This document shows, piece by piece, positions 11,119 to 32,962 of a stretch of 48,792 nt of DNA. The notes under the pieces were generated by a model that did no database searches, was not told the DNA's origin, and worked only from the letters and a program-made list of their open reading frames with translations. The stretch is taken from contig JAFSMP010000023.1 of the NCBI GenBank assembly GCA_017447875.1, positions 1-48,792 of the forward strand. The letters run 5' to 3'. The DNA comes from Paludibacteraceae bacterium (GTDB lineage Bacteria > Bacteroidota > Bacteroidia > Bacteroidales > Paludibacteraceae). The stretch's first letter is position 1; each line of letters opens with the position of its first letter. The position numbers and the translations under genes were made by a program.

Positions 11119-12609
11119 CTATTGATTATTGTCTATTATCTCCCAGTGACCACCTCGGTTTGAGCCGACACGGCGGATGATACCATCACGCTGAAGATTG
11201 TTGGTGAGAGCAATCAGATTCTTCTTTGCTATACCTATCGTCTCAGCCATCTGCGCGGTTGTTACTTTAGGATTCCTCTCAATCATCTCTACAATCATGA
11301 GTGCATAGCCATTCAATACTATAGTTACCTGTTTGGTAACTTTGCCATTAGATGTTTTAGTAATGGTTTTGGTTACGTTTTTGGTTACGTTACCGATAGA
11401 GGCGTAATCGTCTGTATTTGTATTGTTTATATGCTTTTTGGTTACGTTGTCGGTTACGCTTTTGGTTACATTACCTGTTTGCTCGGTAATGTTACCGTAT
11501 ATGTTTAAATCTCTGTGTATGGTAACGAGAGTTCCACTCATGAAGTTCTCAAAACCCGGTTCAGGCAATCCCGCCTCCTTGAACGACTGACACACCTTAG
11601 TAACACCACGTCCCCAAGACTCAATGAAACCGGCACGATAGAAGATATTAGCGATAAGCGGATTACGACGCACAGACATGTGCTCCTTACTCATCCGTTC
11701 CACACTAAAACCTTCCGGTAGATTGCCGTCGTTCCAAAACCAAATACGGTCATTGTAAATCTTCATCTGAATATCCTGCCCGAGATAATCACGGTGGATA
11801 ATAGCGTTATACACCAACTCACGCAAGGCATCCTCCGGCATCTCCAAGGGTTCGACGCGGTGCATTCCTTCATAGTGGATAGGACGGATAAGGTAGTCCT
11901 GACGCAGTTTCCACATCACTTCATCCGCCATTTGCAAAATGTTGCCTTCGATATTATCCTGATGCACCAAGTCCGTTTCATCCTTCACGAAACGACCTAT
12001 GCGGAAACGCGCATTGATAAAACGGCGTTGAGGATTCTTGCCAAACAGCAGGATAGCAGTATTCTTGAGATGCCCGTCTTCTGTCATCAAGTTAAGATTC
12101 TTCAGGACAACCTCAACAGGGTCATTCATTGCCTCTTTAGGCATTCTGTCTATGGGAATAGCATGACGGAGGAAATAGTCAATAGCTTTAGGGTCTATCT
12201 CATCCAGTTTCGCACCTTCACACTCCATATCGTCCCAAGTGCGTCCCATCTTCTTAAGAATGAGCGTTTGCAGACCGGAGCCTTTGACCTCTTGCAATGT
12301 TGAACCGCTACGATAATAGAACTTGCCCCGATAAGCCACAGGCTGCTCAGTAGCATCCACACATATGGAGATATACTCTTTACCATCCTCTGTGTGCAAG
12401 TCCACTTGGGCTAATACGCCGGTAGTCTGGTTGATCTGATTGGGAAGGTCAGCTAACAACTTAGTTGCATTGTTTATACCACATACCTGCCCATCGTCAT
12501 CAATGCCAATATACAATGTGCCACCTTGCGCATTGGCAAAGCCGCTAATGTATTGAAGGTATTCATCCTTCCATATACGTTTGAACTCGGTATGTTGATC
12601 CTCTTTCAT
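11119..12609 (-). CDS. AlbA/Schlafen-type ATP-binding transcriptional regulator
   Basis: The start is set at the ATG at 12609 (MKEDQHTEFK), because the 15 upstream residues overlap the promoter. The 496-residue product has an N-terminal AlbA_2/Schlafen-like domain (E-x-KR near residues 7-11, FANAQGGTLYIGIDDDG near 25-40), a central ATPase-type region with RELVYNAIIHRDY near residue 270, and a C-terminal winged helix (TTAQMAETIGIAKKNLIAL). Between them are tandem NVTK/SVTD/NVTK units around residues 380-430. NVT-type linkers are known in Bacteroidota members of this family. These proteins are thought to bind nucleic acid and regulate transcription; some are linked to phage or element control. 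It sits between the terminase and the surface genes, so host or phage ownership is unclear. Confidence 0.78.
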   Translation of the reverse strand: MKEDQHTEFKRIWKDEYLQYISGFANAQGGTLYIGIDDDGQVCGINNATKLLADLPNQINQTTGVLAQVDLHTEDGKEYISICVDATEQPVAYRGKFYYRSGSTLQEVKGSGLQTLILKKMGRTWDDMECEGAKLDEIDPKAIDYFLRHAIPIDRMPKEAMNDPVEVVLKNLNLMTEDGHLKNTAILLFGKNPQRRFINARFRIGRFVKDETDLVHQDNIEGNILQMADEVMWKLRQDYLIRPIHYEGMHRVEPLEMPEDALRELVYNAIIHRDYLGQDIQMKIYNDRIWFWNDGNLPEGFSVERMSKEHMSVRRNPLIANIFYRAGFIESWGRGVTKVCQSFKEAGLPEPGFENFMSGTLVTIHRDLNIYGNITEQTGNVTKSVTDNVTKKHINNTNTDDYASIGNVTKNVTKTITKTSNGKVTKQVTIVLNGYALMIVEMIERNPKVTTAQMAETIGIAKKNLIALTNNLQRDGIIRRVGSNRGGHWEIIDNNQ

Positions 12610-12643
12610 TGCAACTGATTGACTATGACTTGAAAAAATCGCA

Positions 12644-12765: not shown

Positions 12766-14385
12766 TTAGGAGACTCCGGAAACAGAGAATGTGGAAATGA
12801 CGGTCTGGGGGAACTTCTCACAGCCGATAAAGAGGGTGTCGAAAGCGTCCGTGCCGTCGGTGCGGTGTTGGAGCAAATCTTCCTCCGTCTCTGCCAGTTT
12901 CTCGCCTCCTTTGTCCTTGTGGAAGCCGTTCCGAGAGCGTGTCACTCCAGCCGTCTGGAGGGCCAGAATAAGGTCGTCGTTATTCTGCCGGTTGAAGAAC
13001 GGCATAAGGCGTTGCTTTCCGGCGAAAGCTTGGTTGATGAGAAGGTATTTCTCGTCGTGGCGCATAGGGTTGCCGAGATAGACGGACTCCACGCGCCAGC
13101 CGTGGCGTTCGAACTCGTGGCAAACCACCCAATGGAAATCCTGCGTGTTCACGGCGTAGTTTGAGCCAAGCGCGGTGGTATCGTAATAATAAACGACCGT
13201 TTTGTTACGATGAGCATGATAGTAGGTGCAAAAATCGTGGACGAGTGCCGGGATTTTCCGCTCAAACTTGGTGTAAAAAGATTTGATAACATTGAGGCGT
13301 TTGCCGTTGGGCTGCCCTGCAACAATCCAGTTGATATTGGCGTTGTAGTCCATACCGATGCAGATAGGTGCATCCGGATTAACATCCTTGTCGGCGCGGC
13401 AATCGAGGGCTGAAGGGTCGCACTCCCAGCCGAGCGAATCAAGGTACTCGAAATTGGAAGCATTGTACTTGTGTCCCTCACGCATAGAGGAGTAGAAGCC
13501 ATCTTTAGAGATGCCCAACTGCATACAGAGAATAGAAGTTTGGAAGGTTTTGGGCGTGAGGTCGCGCTTCATCTGCTTAATGTAGTTCTCGCCGAGAAGC
13601 TGCAAGTTTTCTATACTGGAATATTCCTTGTAATAGACCGCGACAGACCGCATCTGATTGAGGGCTTTATCAAGTGTGCGTATCTCCTTGCGCAGGTATT
13701 GGGGCGGCGTGATACCCTGCCGGTGGCACTCGCGCACTTTCTCTTTGAGGCGCCAAATCTCGTAAACGGTGGCTTCAATCGTCTGGATAAGTTCCTTATC
13801 CATTTTCTCCTTGTAGTGTAGAAACCATGAACCTGCCTTTGTCTGCGGCATATCTGACAAGATCATGACGGAGTGATTAAAGGAGTGCTTGCCAAAGTAG
13901 GACTTTATGCCACCATTGGCAGGGAGTGTTTCATCCTTCAATTTCTCGTAATCAATGAACTTGGCTTCGTCGATTAGCAGCCAAGAGAGAGTAAGGGAGT
14001 TAGAAGAACCGGGACGGTCCTGCGAGATAATGACCGCACGGCTGCCGTTGTAGAAGGACAGTACATGTTCGTACTCGGCAGGTTCAATGATTGCAGAGCC
14101 GAAGGATTTGGGCGGCTTGCGACCAATAACATAGTGTATGCCGTTTTCAAAGCCCCACCTTTTGAGTGCGGCGATAATGCCGGGAATGGTGTTCGTTAAG
14201 CCGTGCTTGAAAGTAGGCACGACAATGCCACCAGTACTGCCAGGCATTCGTTGCATATTGCGCAAAACGAATGGCGAGGCGATGCTGTCCGTTTTACCTG
14301 TACGACGGCCGGCCACAATAACGGTGGTGTTCGCTCCGATGAGCTGCGTTAAACGCTGTGGGGTGTTGAAATAGATTTTGGGCAT
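12766..14385 (-). CDS. terL: Phage terminase large subunit
   Basis: This encodes 539 residues of the packaging motor. It cuts concatemeric DNA and pumps it into the prohead through the portal. Visible motifs: Walker A AGRRTGKT at 25-32, Walker B LLIDEA at 136-141, and the first acidic residue of the RNase H-like nuclease in GMDYNANINW near residue 347. Length is within the usual 450-600. It is the last gene of the phage operon, 15 bases after the small-terminase candidate. In most phages the terminase lies upstream of portal and capsid, so its position at the 3' end is notable. No tail gene follows it. Confidence 0.92.
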   Translation of the reverse strand: MPKIYFNTPQRLTQLIGANTTVIVAGRRTGKTDSIASPFVLRNMQRMPGSTGGIVVPTFKHGLTNTIPGIIAALKRWGFENGIHYVIGRKPPKSFGSAIIEPAEYEHVLSFYNGSRAVIISQDRPGSSNSLTLSWLLIDEAKFIDYEKLKDETLPANGGIKSYFGKHSFNHSVMILSDMPQTKAGSWFLHYKEKMDKELIQTIEATVYEIWRLKEKVRECHRQGITPPQYLRKEIRTLDKALNQMRSVAVYYKEYSSIENLQLLGENYIKQMKRDLTPKTFQTSILCMQLGISKDGFYSSMREGHKYNASNFEYLDSLGWECDPSALDCRADKDVNPDAPICIGMDYNANINWIVAGQPNGKRLNVIKSFYTKFERKIPALVHDFCTYYHAHRNKTVVYYYDTTALGSNYAVNTQDFHWVVCHEFERHGWRVESVYLGNPMRHDEKYLLINQAFAGKQRLMPFFNRQNNDDLILALQTAGVTRSRNGFHKDKGGEKLAETEEDLLQHRTDGTDAFDTLFIGCEKFPQTVISTFSVSGVS

Positions 14386-24918: not shown

Positions 24919-24951
24919 AAAGCGAGCGGTCTGGTATCAGCTGCGAGCGTC
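24919..24951. repeat. Cassette 3' repeat, copy C1
   Basis: A 33-base sequence starting AAAGCGAGCGGTCTGG and ending GCGAGCGTC recurs at 27168-27201 with few changes. It lies about 40 bases beyond the ardA stop, just as the other copy lies about 35 bases beyond the 79-residue gene. Confidence 0.7.
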
Positions 24952-24963
24952 CCGATATGGGAA

Positions 24964-24982
24964 GGGCAGCATTGCGCTGCCC
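24964..24982 (-). terminator. Hairpin after ardA
   Basis: GGGCAGC and GCTGCCC form a 7-bp stem with a 5-base loop directly after the ardA stop codon. A T-run is lacking, so it may protect the transcript 3' end rather than terminate fully. Confidence 0.45.
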
Positions 24983-24987
24983 CTCTC

Positions 24988-25551
24988 TCATGCTCGGAAG
25001 ATGTACCCATCGACCTCGGTATAATCTCCGCCCGTATCGAGCGAGCGCCAAACGGCTGAATAATCAATGCAGCATTGGAGCCATTGAGGAAGATTTTTGA
25101 AGTAGCCGCACTCCTCGCAAAGGTTCTCGGCGAAATCTTCGGGGCTATCGTATTTGCCCTCGTAGCGTTCCTCGAAATCTTCGAGCGTGCCCTCATCCCA
25201 ATAGCTCAGATAAGCCTCGTAAGCCTCGCGGCGTTCCTCGCTCAGTTCGGCATATTCTTTGATTTTGTCGAACGTGCTTTCGCCCATGCAGCCTTCACAA
25301 TACCATTGTTCGGGGAAGTGCTCGTAATCTTGGAACATGAGTTCTGCATCCTGCTCATCCGCGTGCAGGCGGTTGCAAAACTCCATGAAATCGTGGTAGG
25401 TTTCAAAGGTTGATAAATCAATCCACATGCCGTACAAACTGCCGCGGTTGTACTTGGCATAGGTGCCACAATAGACGGCTGGGTTGCTGTTTTCGTAGTG
25501 TGCTGCGTGTTCGCGAATTTCGTTCTTTGTCAGCGGTTCTCTGTAGTTCAT
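24988..25551 (-). CDS. ardA: Antirestriction protein ArdA
   Basis: The start chosen is the ATG at 25551 (MNYREPLTKNEI), because upstream codons do not look related. The 187-residue product shows ArdA signatures: VYCGTYAKYNRGSLYGMWIDLS near the N-terminus, LHADEQDAELMFQDYEHFP, and a very acidic overall composition. ArdA mimics bent B-DNA and blocks type I restriction enzymes, letting mobile DNA survive entry. It is the last gene of a cassette with an ArdC-like gene and a small gene, bounded by repeats RA and C1. Four cysteines (YCEGCMG, LCEECGY) might form a small metal site in this version. Confidence 0.88.
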   Translation of the reverse strand: MNYREPLTKNEIREHAAHYENSNPAVYCGTYAKYNRGSLYGMWIDLSTFETYHDFMEFCNRLHADEQDAELMFQDYEHFPEQWYCEGCMGESTFDKIKEYAELSEERREAYEAYLSYWDEGTLEDFEERYEGKYDSPEDFAENLCEECGYFKNLPQWLQCCIDYSAVWRSLDTGGDYTEVDGYIFRA

Positions 25552-25607
25552 AATTTTAGGGATTTTGTGCCCTTTGGGGGATTGCTCCCCCTTGGGGCGG
25601 TTAAACA

Positions 25608-25979
25608 TTATGCGTTTGCGTTCTCGAAATGTACTTGCTCGCGTGAAAATTTGAATGCTACGGGGCAATAAGTGAAGCCTTTTTTGCTCTCTACCGGTGC
25701 GCCCCAAAATAAGTAGGCGTGCTGACCTTTGCGGACGTTTGCCCCTCTTGCTTTCCACCCCTCAAAGGTATCAAGTTCCTGTTCTTGGAGGTTGTAACTC
25801 TCGCGGAGCAACTGATTAAGGGTGAAATCGGTTCTTCCGGCTTGCTTTGCAAGTTCTGCCAAACTATTGCAAAGGGTTTTCAGACCTGCGCGCAAAGTTG
25901 CTGCTTTGCTTGCGTTCTCTACTGCTGCCGCTTGTGCGGTGGTGGTGTTCTCGACTTGGTTTTTCTTTGTACGTGCCAT
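25608..25979 (-). CDS. ArdC N-terminal-like antirestriction protein
   Basis: The start is at MARTKKNQVEN (25979), giving 123 residues. The C-terminal half (DTFEGWKARGANVRKGQHAYLFWG, then GFTYCPVAFKFSREQV) matches the N-terminal domain pattern of ArdC-like proteins, which bind single-stranded DNA, but the metalloprotease part of full ArdC is absent. It precedes ardA by 56 bases in the same cassette. The likely role is protecting incoming DNA. The domain call is moderate. Confidence 0.65.
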   Translation of the reverse strand: MARTKKNQVENTTTAQAAAVENASKAATLRAGLKTLCNSLAELAKQAGRTDFTLNQLLRESYNLQEQELDTFEGWKARGANVRKGQHAYLFWGAPVESKKGFTYCPVAFKFSREQVHFENANA

Positions 25980-26016
25980 AGTTGTAAAAATTTGATTGTT
26001 ATACATTAGTTATTGA

Positions 26017-26190
26017 TTAGTGCCATGTTTGGCTTGTGTACTCAAAATCTTCGTATTCCTCGTAAATATCGCCCCAACTCGGTTCTTCATTTGCGGTAAT
26101 GCTGGAGCGGTGAGCAACCTTTACTAAACCTTGATTGTTAGCGGAGAGGTTATCGAAACCGAGACCAAAAGAAATAGTTAGCTGTGCCAT
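26017..26190 (-). CDS. Small protein at head of antirestriction cassette
   Basis: The 57-residue acidic protein starts MAQLTISFGLGFDNL. No motif was recognised. It precedes the ArdC-like gene by 37 bases. Small acidic proteins next to ardA can be anti-defence factors, but nothing here proves this. Confidence 0.5.
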   Translation of the reverse strand: MAQLTISFGLGFDNLSANNQGLVKVAHRSSITANEEPSWGDIYEEYEDFEYTSQTWH

Positions 26191-26250
26191 GATTGTATGA
26201 ATTTTAGAGTTTAACATTTGCGTATAAAGCAGTTAGCGTTTGATATAACC

Positions 26251-26448
26251 TTTACGGTGCTTTACAAGTGTTCCGTGGGAGTGTTTGCAAGGTTTTCGTG
26301 AAAAAATACTACCATCGGTGCAAGAACTGACCAAAGGGAGGTCTTGCGCCGGAATAATGTGTGGAGATTTTTTTAGTGACAATCGGAACGGCGAAACTCT
26401 GCGTGACCTTTCAAATCAACGTAGCGGTAACTAACTTTGCACCGGAAA
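26251..26448. repeat. Cassette 5' repeat RA (198 bp)
   Basis: Nearly identical to 27805-28001, with about 20 differences over 198 bases. It lies 61 bases upstream of the antirestriction cassette start. It holds no supported gene. On the plus strand both copies keep TAACTTTG 20 bases after CTTTC, a weak promoter match pointing away from the cassette, into the repeat-rich noncoding block. Confidence 0.85.
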
Positions 26449-26697
26449 GGATGTATCAGATAAACGCGGACTCGCTGCGTACGGTAACAAATGCTGAACG
26501 CGCCCGGAAATTGTACTGTCTGGAGCAGAGCAACCAAATTTCTGTCTCGGGTTCGATGAAAAAAACTCTCCGCAGACAAGCAAGAAGAAAAAGAAAAAAA
26601 ATGGGGATGGGGAAAAAGCACTCTCTCCCTGCAGGCATGGGTGGTAGTTTCCCGTAATGCGAGGCGACTTGCGCCGGTACTTGGTAGGCAGCATATA

Positions 26698-26732
26698 GCG
26701 ATCAGAACTGAATACTTGGAAGTCTGTCGCCA
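26698..26732. repeat. 35-bp repeat, copy 1
   Basis: Starts AGCGATCAGAACTGAA and ends AAGTCTGTCGCC. It matches 26866-26900 at 31 of 35 positions. Confidence 0.75.
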
Positions 26733-26865
26733 TTTGCTGCCGGGTTGCGCTTAGTGGAAGCCCACCAAGCAGCGACACCAACTACTGGCGCGAAGCCTGC
26801 ACTACAGGAAACGGTATGCGAGGAATGAGACCGGAACAGCAAAGCGTAGGGAGTGGAAGAGGCGC

Positions 26866-26900
26866 AGCGGTCAGAACTGAACACTTGGAAGTCTGCCGCG
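26866..26900. repeat. 35-bp repeat, copy 2
   Basis: Partner of 26698-26732, separated from it by 133 bases. The shared core is TCAGAACTGAA then ACTTGGAAGTCTG. Confidence 0.75.
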
Positions 26901-27167
26901 AGCCTTAACGACCAGAGCCTTGCCGTGTAGATTGATTGACGAGCTGCGAGGGTGACTGCAGGGGAAGAGTGCTTTGGTGCGTCGGGGAGCCGGACGCTCG
27001 CAGGGAGTAGAAACAGCCGTTACAGCAAAGGGCTGTAGTCACCCACCGGAGGTAGATGCAGCCACCGGCAGGTAGAGTGAAGGGCGCAGCTGCTTGGTCA
27101 GGGCGCACAAACGACGAAGAAAAATGGCAGACCGTAGGTAGATGTCCAAGGAATTGATCCGGGAGAG

Positions 27168-27201
27168 AAAGCGAGCCGTCTGGGGAACAGCGGCGAGCGT
27201 C
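27168..27201. repeat. Cassette 3' repeat, copy C2
   Basis: Second copy of C1 (24919-24951). It begins AAAGCGAGCCGTCTGGG and ends GCGAGCGTC. It lies 35 bases past the stop of the 79-residue gene. Confidence 0.7.
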
Positions 27202-27235
27202 ATGGGTCGGAAAGTGGAGGGTTGCCCCTCCGCTT

Positions 27236-27475
27236 TCACTCCGTGATTGGTTTCTGGTTGCGCGGGCTTTTGCCTTGTGCGCGTTTTGCAAGTTCAGAAA
27301 ACGCAAGGCAATTCAAGCCGTAAATTTTCCAATACTGCTCGTTATCTTTTGCAAGTTCTAACGAGGTGTGATTAGTTACAAACTCCATGTGTGACATGAT
27401 TGTTTGACAAGACGAGAGAATAGACTCAAGCTGCTCTTCTGTGCAGCGGACGAGGATTTGAGAAATAGGTATCAT
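27236..27475 (-). CDS. Small phage accessory protein, unknown
   Basis: This encodes 79 residues starting MIPISQILVRCTEEQLE. It is helical (EQLESILSSCQTIMSHMEFV) with a basic C-terminus (RAQGKSPRNQKP). It follows the 100-residue gene by 11 bases, so the two form a unit bracketed by repeats RB and C2. No family was recognised. By analogy with the neighbouring cassette it may serve entry or anti-defence, which is inference. Confidence 0.5.
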   Translation of the reverse strand: MIPISQILVRCTEEQLESILSSCQTIMSHMEFVTNHTSLELAKDNEQYWKIYGLNCLAFSELAKRAQGKSPRNQKPITE

Positions 27476-27486
27476 ACTTGTAAAAA

Positions 27487-27789
27487 TTAAAAATTGTATT
27501 TATAATCTTCGGCTCTCATAGCCATTACTAAATCAAGTTCTTTTTGGCGTTTCTGCTCTGCTTTGAGTTCGCGCTCCAACTGCGCATATAACCAAGCACC
27601 GCGCCCAAACATTAAATCGTACTCTATATCTTGTGACGCTTTGAAATCGGCTGCGCTGCAATCATAGCTAACAACTTTTTTCTTTTCGCTCTTGTGGCTT
27701 TCTTTAACCACCGGAGCGGCTTCTGTTGGTTCGCTCCATAGCAGAGGAAGTTCGGGAAGGGATTGCTGATGTGAAATGTGCTTGTACAT
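27487..27789 (-). CDS. Small phage accessory protein, unknown
   Basis: This encodes 100 residues starting MYKHISHQQSLPELPLLW. A proline-rich and charged N-terminal half leads to a helical end (YAQLERELKAEQKRQKELDLV). It begins 16 bases from repeat RB, a place equivalent to the first gene of the antirestriction cassette. No motif was recognised. Confidence 0.5.
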   Translation of the reverse strand: MYKHISHQQSLPELPLLWSEPTEAAPVVKESHKSEKKKVVSYDCSAADFKASQDIEYDLMFGRGAWLYAQLERELKAEQKRQKELDLVMAMRAEDYKYNF

Positions 27790-27804
27790 AATTGATGAAT
27801 TTTA

Positions 27805-28001
27805 TTTACGGTGCTTTACAAGTGTTCCGAGTAGTGTTTGCAAGGTTTTCGTAAAAAAATACTACCATAGGGGCGAGGAGTGACCGAAGGGAGGTCTTGC
27901 CCCGAAATAATGTGTGGAGATTTTTTTAGCGACAATCGGAGCGGCGAAACTATGCGCGACCTTTCAAACCAACGGAGCGGTAACTAACTTTGCGCCGGAA
28001 A
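27805..28001. repeat. Cassette 5' repeat RB (197 bp)
   Basis: Near copy of RA (26251-26448), placed immediately upstream of the second accessory cassette. Conserved parts include TTTACGGTGCTTTACAAG, GGAGGTCTTGC, an A/T-rich centre and GGTAACTAACTTTGC. Confidence 0.85.
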
Positions 28002-28260
28002 TAGGTTCATAGGACAAGCACTAATCAGCGAGCCAAGAACTTCACTATGGGAGCGATCCAAAGCAGAGGTGGGAAAGCCCAAGAGCCAGCACATGCAGCC
28101 AAAGGCAAATGTAGAGGCAGGAATAAGAACGGTAGTGCCTGCCGTTTCCGCGCCGCGAGCTCCTTACTGCCAGGAGTGAAACGGATGGTGCTTTCCGCGT
28201 TAGGGATTGGAAGGGCATACTTGGTACGAAGTGCGGCCACCCCTGCAAAGCCCGGCGGTG

Positions 28261-28500
28261 CAGTCTCCGAGGAAATCACGGCTACCAAAGCAGTCTCCAA
28301 GAATTTTACGGCTGGTGCAAGCCGGTAGTCTCCGAGCGATTACGCTGTAAGGGGTCGGGTTGCAGGAGTGAAACGACCGCTTGCGGTCTGCAACTTGCCC
28401 CCGCAACAGTCGCATAGTAAATAGCGGCTACCGGCCTGCGCCAGTCTCCGAGGAAAATACGGCTGCCTTGGTAGTCCTTGGGGGATTTGCGGCTGCACCG
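28261..28500. repeat. Degenerate 30-bp tandem repeat (block B)
   Basis: Units at 28261-28290, 28291-28320, about 28325-28350, 28441-28470 and 28471-28500 share the pattern AGTCTCCGAGGAAATYACGGCT. The period is exactly 30 bases within the two runs. On the minus strand the units can be read as 10-residue SRxFLGDxxx repeats, but the frame is not continuous, so coding is unproven. The remaining block 28003-28260 holds no supported gene. Confidence 0.65.
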
Positions 28501-28562
28501 AAACGCCCAAAATAATTGAGAACTGCAAAATTCCGTCACCTTGGTAACTTTCTGCGTCAGCC

Positions 28563-28708
28563 CCGATAAATACAGGGAACTTGCGAGGTGTCGAAAAGTT
28601 ACAAGAGGTTACCAAAAGTTACAAAAGGTTACCAAAAGTTACAAATTAAGTAACCTTCTAATATCCGATAAATACAAGGCAAACGGCGAAAAGTTACAAA
28701 GTTACCGT
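28563..28708. repeat. Iteron-like repeats, possible replication origin
   Basis: Two full and one partial 20-bp unit (AAAAGTTACAARAGGTTACC) occupy 28594-28643. Further GTTAC words follow at 28690-28706. A second repeat, CCGATAAATACA plus similar flank, occurs at 28565 and 28665. The site lies next to the primase-helicase gene, so an origin bound by that protein or a partner is plausible. Confidence 0.55.
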
Positions 28709-28813: not shown

Positions 28814-31276
28814 CTAGAGAAGTGTGGGTTCTGGCGGTAACTGAGGCGTAGGTGGCGGAGTGGTTTCAGCTTTCTGTGTAATAAGCCGGTGCATATAGGC
28901 ATACTCCTTTTCATCAAGGAAAGCTTTTGCCTTAAAAACAAAGGCTTTGGCTTTATCCTTATAGTAACCAATCAGCGTTTTGCCCTCATTTGACTCAAAG
29001 TAATACGGGATCTTAATGTAGCGCGTTTTGTTGATGCCGTCGGTATCAACTGCGTCCGGGACTTTGAGGTTCATGCGCAGGTAGGAGCGGATGGTATCAG
29101 AGGGCATACGCTGTATTTCCGGCACCATTGTTTTGAGAACATTGATAGAAATGACATACTCCTCTTTGGGGAAATCAAGGAAGAGCGTTTTAACGGCCTC
29201 CTTAATCTCCTTGACCGGCACAGGCTGCTGCGACGCTTTCAGATCGAGCAAAGCTTGTGTCTCAATCATTTCTTCCGTGAACCACATACGGCTTTTCGAC
29301 TCTTTCACGTGCATCTGACGCGAGATAAGGAAGGAGAGAAAGCCGGGTATCTCATCACAAATAAGAGGGAGAATTTCAGGGACTACCTCTGCTTCCGGAA
29401 TCGGCGAAATCTTACGCACCCAAAAACGGATCTCATCCTCCTGGGTGTAGATGAAGCGAGTTTCATTGTTGGAGCAGAGAACGTATTTCGTGAAATTCTC
29501 AATCTCCTCATGGTCTTTGCCCTTGCGCTGCATAGGCATACGTTTGGCGGTGGACATCATCTTCAGGCGTTCGGTAACCTTGGTATTGTCCTCCAGCGAT
29601 GTTTCATCGACTCCGACTATCAGCTTGCCGCTGACAAGGGCGTTAAATTCAGAGGTGATTTCGCTATTACCCACGATAATTGCATTGCTGCCGTACATTT
29701 CCCGGAGCAGATCCAGAAACGAGGTTTTACCAGTACCGCGTTCGTTGCTGACGAGGCAAAGGATTGGCAGGATTTGCATGGGCTTCAGATAGAGCAACTG
29801 CATATAATCGTAGCCGAGTTCGACCTGCTCCCCAAAGATATGCTCCATGAGGGCCTTGATATGGGGAAATGGTCCGGCTTGCGCCTCGTAGTTAAGTGGG
29901 TTGTAGAGGTTAAAGCAATCGGCAACTACCGCTTTGTAATCAATATGCGAAGGGTAATTGATAAAAGCCTTGTACTTATGGATGTTGGCGATTTGGTCAC
30001 GACCGAAATCATCTATAATCGTTTGCTTGCGGCGAGGGACTAACTTGGTTTCAAGTTGGCCGGTGCGGATGTTGGGCTTCTGAATCATCTCGAAATAATC
30101 ATCACCGACGCGAACGAAATCCTTAATAGCAAGCGGCATAGCGCGCTGCACTTTCTCTTCTGACTTGTCATAGAGATAGACCATACGCTCGTAGATAAAT
30201 TCGGACTCTCCGATTATATCTGCCCAATGCTTATAGAAGCTGTCTATCGAATCAAGGAAGAAGTGCTTTTTGAGACGCTTAAACTGATCACGCACGTTCA
30301 TCCGGAAGAAATACCGACCGTTGATGTCATCTTCTGTAAGGTCCTTGAGTATTTCTGCCGATTTCCCCTTATAGGCAGGGGTAAGAAGGAGATCATCGAG
30401 ACCTTTGGGATGGTCGATAAGGGAATCTGATTTAACGTGTGCAAACTCAATCTGAACTGCCGAGAAATCGATTAGCAAATCTCGCGTGTTCATAATAGCA
30501 TTATAGAAAATGCGAGGACGCCGGGAAAGATCTCGTTTCTTGGCGAAATCTTTCATGGAGATATTGAGGCAGTCGCCATCGTAGAGAAGGACCACCTTTC
30601 TCACATGGCAGGTATTGATGAGCAGTTTAATGTCGTTGTGCAGTTCGTGTGTGCTGCTGTCGGCATAATGGGTAATAGAGCCGAGACCGACCACACAAAA
30701 GCCGTGCAAACTGGCGCACATGGACTTGAAATAGCCCTCCGTGAGGATTAGGGTATCAATGTCCTCTTTCTTCCGGAACTTTTCAAGAAGATTGGGCGGA
30801 AAGAACGGATAAATGCCTTGCCCCTTGGGAAAGCGGTACTTGGGCGCATCCTCATCCTTGATATTCTGCGGTGCAATACGCGTAACAAAGTAGTCTTTGA
30901 GACGCGTGATGCTGCTTTGATCGAATGTCTTGCCCATGTTGGGGTCGGGGTAGCTGACTATCCAACCGTTCAAAGTATAAACGCGAATACGAATGTTGCC
31001 TTCCTCATCTTCTGAAAAGATGTCGAAAGTACCGCTACCGTCGCGAAAATCCGCTCCTGTTTCATAGCGCAGTTTAATGCGGTTCTGTTTAGGAGTAAGC
31101 CCAATCTCATCGAATATACGGCGTTGGAAATAGGAACGGCCATCTGACGGCTGTTCCTGTGTCGGCTCGTCCTTGGGCGTGTCCTTAGGCGTGTCCGACT
31201 GTTCCAGCTCCGGAGACTGTTCCGAAGAAAGCTGTGGGGCGGTAGGCTCTATGATATCACCTTGATTTTGAACCAT
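28814..31276 (-). CDS. Phage primase-helicase (TOPRIM-like plus SF3/D5-like ATPase)
   Basis: This encodes 820 residues. The N-terminal third has a TOPRIM-like pattern (TLILTEGYFKSM near 192-205, then VVLLYDGD near 225-235), as in phage primases of the DUF3854 type. The C-terminal half has a helicase core: Walker A SNERGTGKTSF near 508-518, Walker B LIVGVDETSL near 550, and a sensor-like VLCSNNE near 595. Such fused proteins start and drive replication of phages and satellites. The first 45 residues are disordered and acidic and the last 15 proline-rich. It overlaps the upstream small gene by 20 bases and lies beside iteron-like repeats. Confidence 0.85.
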   Translation of the reverse strand: MVQNQGDIIEPTAPQLSSEQSPELEQSDTPKDTPKDEPTQEQPSDGRSYFQRRIFDEIGLTPKQNRIKLRYETGADFRDGSGTFDIFSEDEEGNIRIRVYTLNGWIVSYPDPNMGKTFDQSSITRLKDYFVTRIAPQNIKDEDAPKYRFPKGQGIYPFFPPNLLEKFRKKEDIDTLILTEGYFKSMCASLHGFCVVGLGSITHYADSSTHELHNDIKLLINTCHVRKVVLLYDGDCLNISMKDFAKKRDLSRRPRIFYNAIMNTRDLLIDFSAVQIEFAHVKSDSLIDHPKGLDDLLLTPAYKGKSAEILKDLTEDDINGRYFFRMNVRDQFKRLKKHFFLDSIDSFYKHWADIIGESEFIYERMVYLYDKSEEKVQRAMPLAIKDFVRVGDDYFEMIQKPNIRTGQLETKLVPRRKQTIIDDFGRDQIANIHKYKAFINYPSHIDYKAVVADCFNLYNPLNYEAQAGPFPHIKALMEHIFGEQVELGYDYMQLLYLKPMQILPILCLVSNERGTGKTSFLDLLREMYGSNAIIVGNSEITSEFNALVSGKLIVGVDETSLEDNTKVTERLKMMSTAKRMPMQRKGKDHEEIENFTKYVLCSNNETRFIYTQEDEIRFWVRKISPIPEAEVVPEILPLICDEIPGFLSFLISRQMHVKESKSRMWFTEEMIETQALLDLKASQQPVPVKEIKEAVKTLFLDFPKEEYVISINVLKTMVPEIQRMPSDTIRSYLRMNLKVPDAVDTDGINKTRYIKIPYYFESNEGKTLIGYYKDKAKAFVFKAKAFLDEKEYAYMHRLITQKAETTPPPTPQLPPEPTLL

Positions 31277-32882: not shown

Positions 32883-32962
32883 AGAGAAGTCCGAGGGCCT
32901 TCTCAGCCCCCGATCGGTGGGTTCTTATCTCGCTTCGCTCGAACGATTATTGCTTTGCAATT

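Follow-up and report, generated by a model that had tools for sequence, protein, structure and literature searches.

Conserved boundary elements of a Bacteroidales prophage family suggest swappable gene cassettes and a gene-capture system

In integrons, attC sites are variable in sequence but form a paired hairpin with conserved ends (RYYYAAC ... GTTRRRY). Lambdoid phages carry boundary (linker) sequences and morons, with short conserved intergenic sequences at the edges of their modules. Integron cassettes and attC sites (PMC2727003 and PMC6393395), the dif modules of Acinetobacter plasmids, in which host recombinases move gene modules by way of short flanking XerC/XerD sites (PMC6449649 and PMC12907356), and the anti-defence islands of plasmid leading regions (PMC11541004) serve here for comparison. 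We analyzed a 48,792-nucleotide stretch of DNA (the window) from Paludibacteraceae bacterium, namely, contig C52 (JAFSMP010000023.1) of a 2.2-Mb metagenome-assembled genome (MAG; GCA_017447875.1). The window is a prophage, and we interpret the region studied, located between its primase and head genes, as the slot in which a family of Bacteroidales prophages carries accessory genes. Comparison with relatives suggests that short conserved noncoding elements, designated E_R and A_L, mark the ends of swappable cassettes as parts of a gene-capture system.

All stranded features of the region are on the minus strand. Read in this direction, it opens with an E copy comprising a left part (type II, 28257-28510), which contains repeats of ~24 to 35 bp around CAGCCGTAAAATTCTCGGAGACTGC, and the cargo-boundary element E_R (28197-28256), in which conserved flanks enclose a variable hairpin and which ends in CCCTAACGC. 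A short stretch without recognized cargo (28003-28196, no strand assigned) leads to repeat R_B (27805-28001), the leader region ahead of ORF100 (27487-27789) and ORF79 (27236-27475). Beyond the operon-end repeat C2 (27165-27201), located 3′ of a hairpin, comes block A, composed of A_L (26988-27140), a conserved element of ~150 bp that is found 3′ of cargo in relatives and ends at GTCCGGCT, and A_R (26450-26987), a noncoding block in which a 24-bp dyad is found twice (26703-26726 and 26872-26895). Repeat R_A (26251-26448) is the leader region ahead of ORF57 (26017-26190), an ArdC-like gene (25608-25979), and ardA (24988-25551), after which repeat C1 (24916-24951) is located. The minus-strand order described in the first-pass annotation for each of two units (noncoding block, R, small genes, and C) was borne out, as were the internal repeats of its noncoding blocks (families D2, D5, and D6).

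The main cargo slot has its left border at the end of ORF79 in most mapped relatives. The content of the slot was counted in 12 loci that have the ORF79/ORF100/E side and block A on one contig, one-sided loci being left out: the window, G353 (L110), contig C39 of the window's genome, G323 (L111), G479, G468 (two prophages), G423, G472, G412, G318, and viral contig L024, with L020 and L111 counted once. ORF100 is kept in relatives and ORF79 mostly so, with no ORF79 match in G318, whose contig ends inside block A, and in G412. In 10 of the 12 loci, ORF79/ORF100 and block A are separated by cargo, which measures about 3.7 to 25 kb, the slot being free of cargo in the window and G353. Cassettes of the relatives range in size from about 0.8 to >10 kb and from a single gene to several, occur singly or in arrays of two or three, and are flanked 5′ by E_R and 3′ by a left-type element (A_L, E_L, or others). 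In L116, whose primase is 94% identical to that of the window, other genes follow the primase and E_R, at the position where the window has no recognized cargo; one of these genes matched HsdM_N below the cut-off (21.3 versus 24.5 bits). Scanning of the cargo identified GNAT, AraC, REase-ARP, Fic, WYL, PAD_porph, BspA-type LRR, alpha-amylase, and AlbA/HATPase families, to which HxlR-, cupin-, and radical-SAM-like genes can be added by reading. Giant proteins of 1555 to 3274 residues recur (1,832 residues of one were scanned). The sampled cargo consists mostly of surface and metabolic genes, with some defence-like genes. The proposal of a slot for swapped cassettes is supported as far as short conserved noncoding sequences mark a place of exchange, although its edges are not the R and C repeats as first proposed, and this cargo is not chiefly of the anti-defence nature ascribed to the cassettes.

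E_R is ~60 to 71 bp long, and in relatives cargo begins directly 3′ of it and often ends at A_L. The exact E_R pattern was found in 33 of 178 genomes of the genus, in 1 of 295 genomes of the order (the window's own), and in one viral contig. A covariance model of E_R had matches in 48 of 101 genus genomes at an E value of 0.01, with 0 to 5 matches per genome, and a dispersed element similar to repetitive extragenic palindromes was rejected on this count. The 72 model matches in relative loci corresponded to 67 distinct stretches, whose left neighbors were E_L (31), A_L (5), type II (5), L4 (4), L6 (3), or unclassed (19, including L143, an A_L hybrid by eye). Of these stretches, 49 carry CCCTAAC followed by no fewer than 150 bp, and they fell into 20 downstream clusters. 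When one representative per cluster was aligned, 15 of the last 16 positions through CCCTAAC were at 95 to 100% identity and the other at 75%, the identity of CCCTAAC itself being built in, since the counted matches had been selected for it. The next three positions (GCG) were at 90 to 100%, after which identity dropped to 30 to 65%. A_L has a sharp left edge after cargo, and sequence diverges past GTCCGGCT. Two additional observations concern E_R copies: in L153 and L154, the element appears split into two partial matches ~190 bp apart with similar sequence between them, paired model matches being likewise present in G404 and G409, and in L109 a weaker match follows the capsid gene.

The fate of individual cassettes could be followed with a 3211-aa gene (9.6 kb), which was found with its neighbors in G318, G412, G468, and G420 and also, within the covered part of the contig, in G474. 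This gene is 99.6% identical in G318 and G468a, whose primases align over just 24% of their length at 67% identity, and the block shared by these loci (99.2% over 11.7 kb) ends inside A_L. Between G468a and G420, identity is 99.2% over 9.9 kb starting at E_R, versus 20 to 42% per 40 bp leftward, and A_R and R follow A_L in both. In G474 and G480 (L114 and L115), cassette genes are located among genes without a match to any phage protein tested. Hybrid A_L/E_R junctions occur in six genomes, with GGCTTGAC, as in A_L, in L100, L107, and L144 and CTTTGC, as in E_R, in L117, L143, and L149. The hybrids share a short core of ~8 bp, GGCTTKRC, and the two junction types indicate at least two crossover forms inside this core. 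The boundary positions, the arrays, the genes of one cassette in unlike backbones, and the hybrid junctions at the core are direct observations. Together, these results support the movement of cassettes as units.

Two inner pairs of the hairpin stem switch between pair types in the 59 distinct E_R sequences aligned (GC 31, AU 9, and UA 8 for one; UA 27, GC 15, and CG 2 for the other). In this alignment, which was fitted to a model built with the same stem, double changes across the entire structure were found in 39 cells versus 11.2 ± 2.6 in shuffles (0 of 500) and 2 to 6 in slid controls; an earlier alignment of 27 sequences had given 13 such cells versus 3.5 ± 1.4. One drawn stem pair, C.A, never forms. 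Cues to the strand conflict, the fixed C.A pointing to antisense and G.U pairs in the outer helix to sense. A pseudoknot joining AGGGGUU to AAUCCCU was considered and set aside: 94.9% of its cells are paired, but it hardly varies, and although its strand order resembles that of ribozymes similar to the hepatitis delta virus (HDV) type, no Rfam ribozyme matched. Like attC, E_R is variable in sequence yet paired, with conserved ends. Unlike attC, type I E copies start with TTGGGCGTT and end with CCCTAACGC, corresponding by eye to GTT...AAC rather than AAC...GTT.

Recombination in or at the elements is probably the process by which cassettes bounded by E_R and left-type elements are exchanged. 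Under this reading, cassettes would pass between phages and be exchanged with chromosomal contigs, so that their movement would reach chromosomes, E_R and A_L would be the recombination sites, and E_R may work as a folded hairpin. Either a recombinase would act at the core or homologous recombination would use the 60- to 150-bp edges. The ~8-bp hybrids and the block beginning at E_R favor the former, and the E_R copies found after the capsid gene (see below) and the varied left partners favor the latter.

Several points weigh against exchange at the elements. The initial patterns fixed the ends of E_R, the model was derived from the sequences thus obtained, and the boundary count kept CCCTAAC matches only, so that part of the invariance of E_R is built in; downstream clustering was crude, one cluster of 15 joining unlike cargo. 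RNAalifold returned zero pairs on the gapped E_R alignment. The left partners vary, 19 of 67 being unclassed as stated above, and some junctions cut into E_R (L148, L150, L152, and L153). The block common to G318 and G468a starts 18 bp before the start codon and not at E_R, because G318 and G412 have extra genes between E_R and the giant gene. The backbones of G318 and G412 are much alike (primase, 92%), and that of G420 was only partly compared, since its contig is devoid of the primase. No recombinase was tied to the elements, no excised circle was seen among the sequences compared, and the filled and empty states of one site in one backbone were limited to the after-primase site of L116. 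Finally, in L022, L033, L104, L106, and L111, an E_R copy comes right after the capsid gene, with the next phage gene directly behind it in the last three, implying that E_R may be an ordinary intergenic element merely hosting recombination.

This position of E_R fits an alternative to which we assign somewhat less than an even chance, namely, that E_R and A_L would be conserved intergenic elements of an ordinary type (hairpins of terminators, leaders, or processing sites) and that homologous recombination between these 70- to 150-bp tracts in co-resident prophages would exchange any sequence enclosed by them, with no dedicated recombinase. Exchange of this type at boundary sequences has been proposed for lambdoid phages. 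It would agree with the three loci devoid of cargo before the next phage gene, with the hairpin variants of E_R, which by eye are linked neither to what precedes the element nor to what follows it, and with the confinement of exact E_R matches to one genus in the sets searched, except for one viral contig. However, the A_L/E_R hybrids share only about 8 bp, and the G468a/G420 identity block starts just at E_R. Like lambdoid boundary sequences, the elements are conserved short intergenic edges next to cargo unlike the phage core; they differ by the tandem cassettes, the hybrid left/right junctions, the covarying hairpin, and the recurrence of the same cassette genes at places without a match to any tested phage protein.

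A dedicated enzyme is the premise of a bolder proposal, which we regard as tentative: gut Bacteroidales would have a hitherto undescribed cassette system akin to integrons, with E_R and A_L as its sites, and a recombinase (phage, chromosomal, or Xer) would recognize the central hairpin by its shape and not its sequence, loading prophages and chromosomes with cassettes that can include 9.6-kb genes. As in integrons, the mobile cassettes form arrays, mostly in one orientation. Unlike integron cassettes, those found here extend to >10 kb, can carry several genes, and in some cases have their own promoter-like sequence (by eye). An integron proper was rejected, because no integrase scored over the cut-off: for the integron integrase model TIGR02249, this was the case in 0 of 12 array- or E-bearing genomes (best score, 90 versus 265 bits), and 14 control genomes likewise matched below the cut-off. 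Tyrosine recombinases gave 11 matches in the window's genome and were also present in one of three viral records, without a link to the elements. The dif modules are likewise gene modules with short flanking elements; the XerC/XerD sites are 28 bp long, whereas the elements described here extend over 60 to 150 bp with core GGCTTKRC.

The first-pass annotation had located the exchange points elsewhere, in the R and C repeats, which were thought to bound two anti-defence cassettes. The repeats themselves are real: alignment of R_A with R_B covered 198 columns at 90.4% identity (269 bits) and that of C1 with C2 covered 37 columns at 83.8% (37.4 bits), both above 100 of 100 scores obtained by comparing one unit with dinucleotide shuffles of the other (maximum, 27.4 bits). 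Matching repeats, ArdA in one unit, and an ArdC-like paralogue beside the other pair in relatives are in keeping with that model. It is nevertheless very improbable, because R is followed by ORF57 in 19 mapped relative loci besides the window, a kept gene order that contradicts exchange at R, and because C was matched among the mapped relative loci solely in L028, a close relative, at both operon ends. Where the contig extends far enough, ArdA comes next, in a split or partial form in a few loci. The C repeats mark operon ends, each being located directly after a hairpin behind the last gene of its set. We read R as a duplicated leader shared by two gene sets, both of which keep their place in relatives. 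The sets R_B-ORF100-ORF79 and R_A-ORF57-ArdC-like-ArdA would have this leader in common, with the noncoding boundary elements E_R and A_L/A_R placed between and before them. R contains what we take to be a promoter-like sequence of the Bacteroidetes kind (TAnnTTTG), placed by eye. A third copy of R with its adjoining block is present in the same genome (C39, ~162-377; 93% to R_A and 88% to R_B), and L020 has a diverged R copy upstream of a 128-aa gene, ORF100, and ORF79. C1 and C2 carry GCGAGCGTC (24943 and 27193, plus strand), and the same 9-mer is found near the A_L end in the opposite orientation (about 26993-27001, minus strand).

ArdA was identified as an antirestriction protein by PF07275 (98.3 bits for a cut-off of 27). 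The ArdC-like protein scored below the cut-off of PF08401 (16.5 versus 22.6 bits). ORF100 is a phage gene of unknown function. The small ORF79 product gave a confident all-helical model (pLDDT 93), with zero matches at an E value of 0.001 among solved or viral structures (best E values, 0.65 and 0.24) and nothing convincing in sequence searches (best E value, 0.49). In L020 and other loci, a paralogue of the ArdC-like protein (the 128-aa protein in L020; 28% identity, E value of 2e-6) adjoins ORF100 and ORF79, and an anti-defence role of this pair, as initially proposed, is for that reason plausible by association only, the paralogue of the L020-type phages having no ArdC match in Pfam. As in plasmid leading-region islands, ArdA and ArdC-like genes are clustered behind repeated leader sequences; unlike these islands, the locus is in a prophage, and its sampled variable cargo is mostly not anti-defence. 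A second ORF79-like gene is present at L106:8354-8515, L108:1421-1582, and L112:7109-7270. Its first half reads by eye as the start of methionine sulfoxide reductase A and its second half as ORF79, making it a recombinant junction common to three genomes.

The dyad of block A is present in 2 to 4 copies per block in relatives, and its pattern, AGAACTGAAYACTTGGARGTCTG, was found in 3 viral contigs, 21 genome-contig stretches, and 20 of 358 genomes of the family, all 20 belonging to one genus. The iteration of this dyad could reflect a large structured noncoding phage RNA with repeated hairpins. Folding of block A in the gene-sense strand gave z scores of −6.1 (window; −6.8 on repetition) and −5.5 (L020) with 20 shuffles each, but just −2.0 in L028 and −2.3 in C39, and a coding control reached −3.4 and −3.7. 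Rfam 15 had 0 matches in the window at the gathering score, and positions 26200-28600 gave a single microRNA match (E value of 4.6) at E values up to 5. An iterated protein-binding site fits block A equally well. The structured RNA is thus unlikely and was set aside, since fold scores are inconsistent between copies, the coding control is level with most of them, and no Rfam family matched. The order block A, R, ORF57, ArdA, orf185, orf141, protease, and capsid is kept in most loci reaching so far, the exceptions being a split or cut ArdA in L033, L038, and L044 and an AlbA-type gene replacing orf185 in L045. Genus members with block A are Bacteroidales or Paludibacteraceae MAGs, several of them from ruminant gut sites. 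In four genomes (L026, L031, L032, and L037), contigs of 3681 to 3716 bp have similar ends around block A, which are probably assembly breaks at shared sequence.

The minus-strand genes of the window from ~12.7 to 24.2 kb include phage head genes, among them a terminase-like gene (12766-14385; PHROG E value of 1.2e-8), a Clp-type protease gene (PF00574, 22665-23717), and a DUF6712 protein gene identified by Pfam scanning. Terminase and head protease within one array identify a tailed-phage prophage. The first-pass annotation also likened the repeats, by inference, to the single-strand promoters of plasmid leading regions, which would be foldable and set in a transfer region beside oriT; a Pfam scan of 37 distinct proteins of the window revealed no conjugation gene. 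The DUF5906 primase gene is at 28814-31276, and host-type genes start at 32955. Searches of phage and plasmid collections with window positions 26191-28050 (blastn) and of phages with a 12-kb cassette stretch of L105 (megablast) gave zero matches. In viral contigs, ORF79 and ORF100 matched one locus each, on the same contig, the primase matched four loci at 39 to 42% identity, and the ArdC-like protein had zero matches. A 79% copy of the type II E part is present at C11:6104-6413 of the window's genome, flanked by genes read as UmuC-like and tail-like, contig C11 (L013) being a second related prophage fragment (terminase protein 80% identical) with the element after the UmuC-like gene. An AlbA/Schlafen-type gene near the terminase gene (11119-12636) has a 26%-identical relative that is cargo in C39 (L014:2805-4424), and a similar 48-bp stretch is found upstream of both. 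At L099:3024-4825 (and, by reading, in L102 and L103), an AAA_21 gene adjoins an RloB-like gene at the edge of the phage, a pair that resembles the two-gene layout of PARIS defence; the neighboring prophage has the same cargo slot.

Gain of cargo by temperate phages is usually described as rare illegitimate recombination. The relatives of this prophage show standard, reusable cassette edges and arrays, and within a single gut genus a cassette of >10 kb appears to have passed intact, and recently, between prophages that are otherwise unlike. Should the edges prove to be true sites, two short DNA elements would allow a direct test of cargo capture by prophages; otherwise, the family would offer a clear-cut natural example of modules exchanged under the guidance of boundary sequences.

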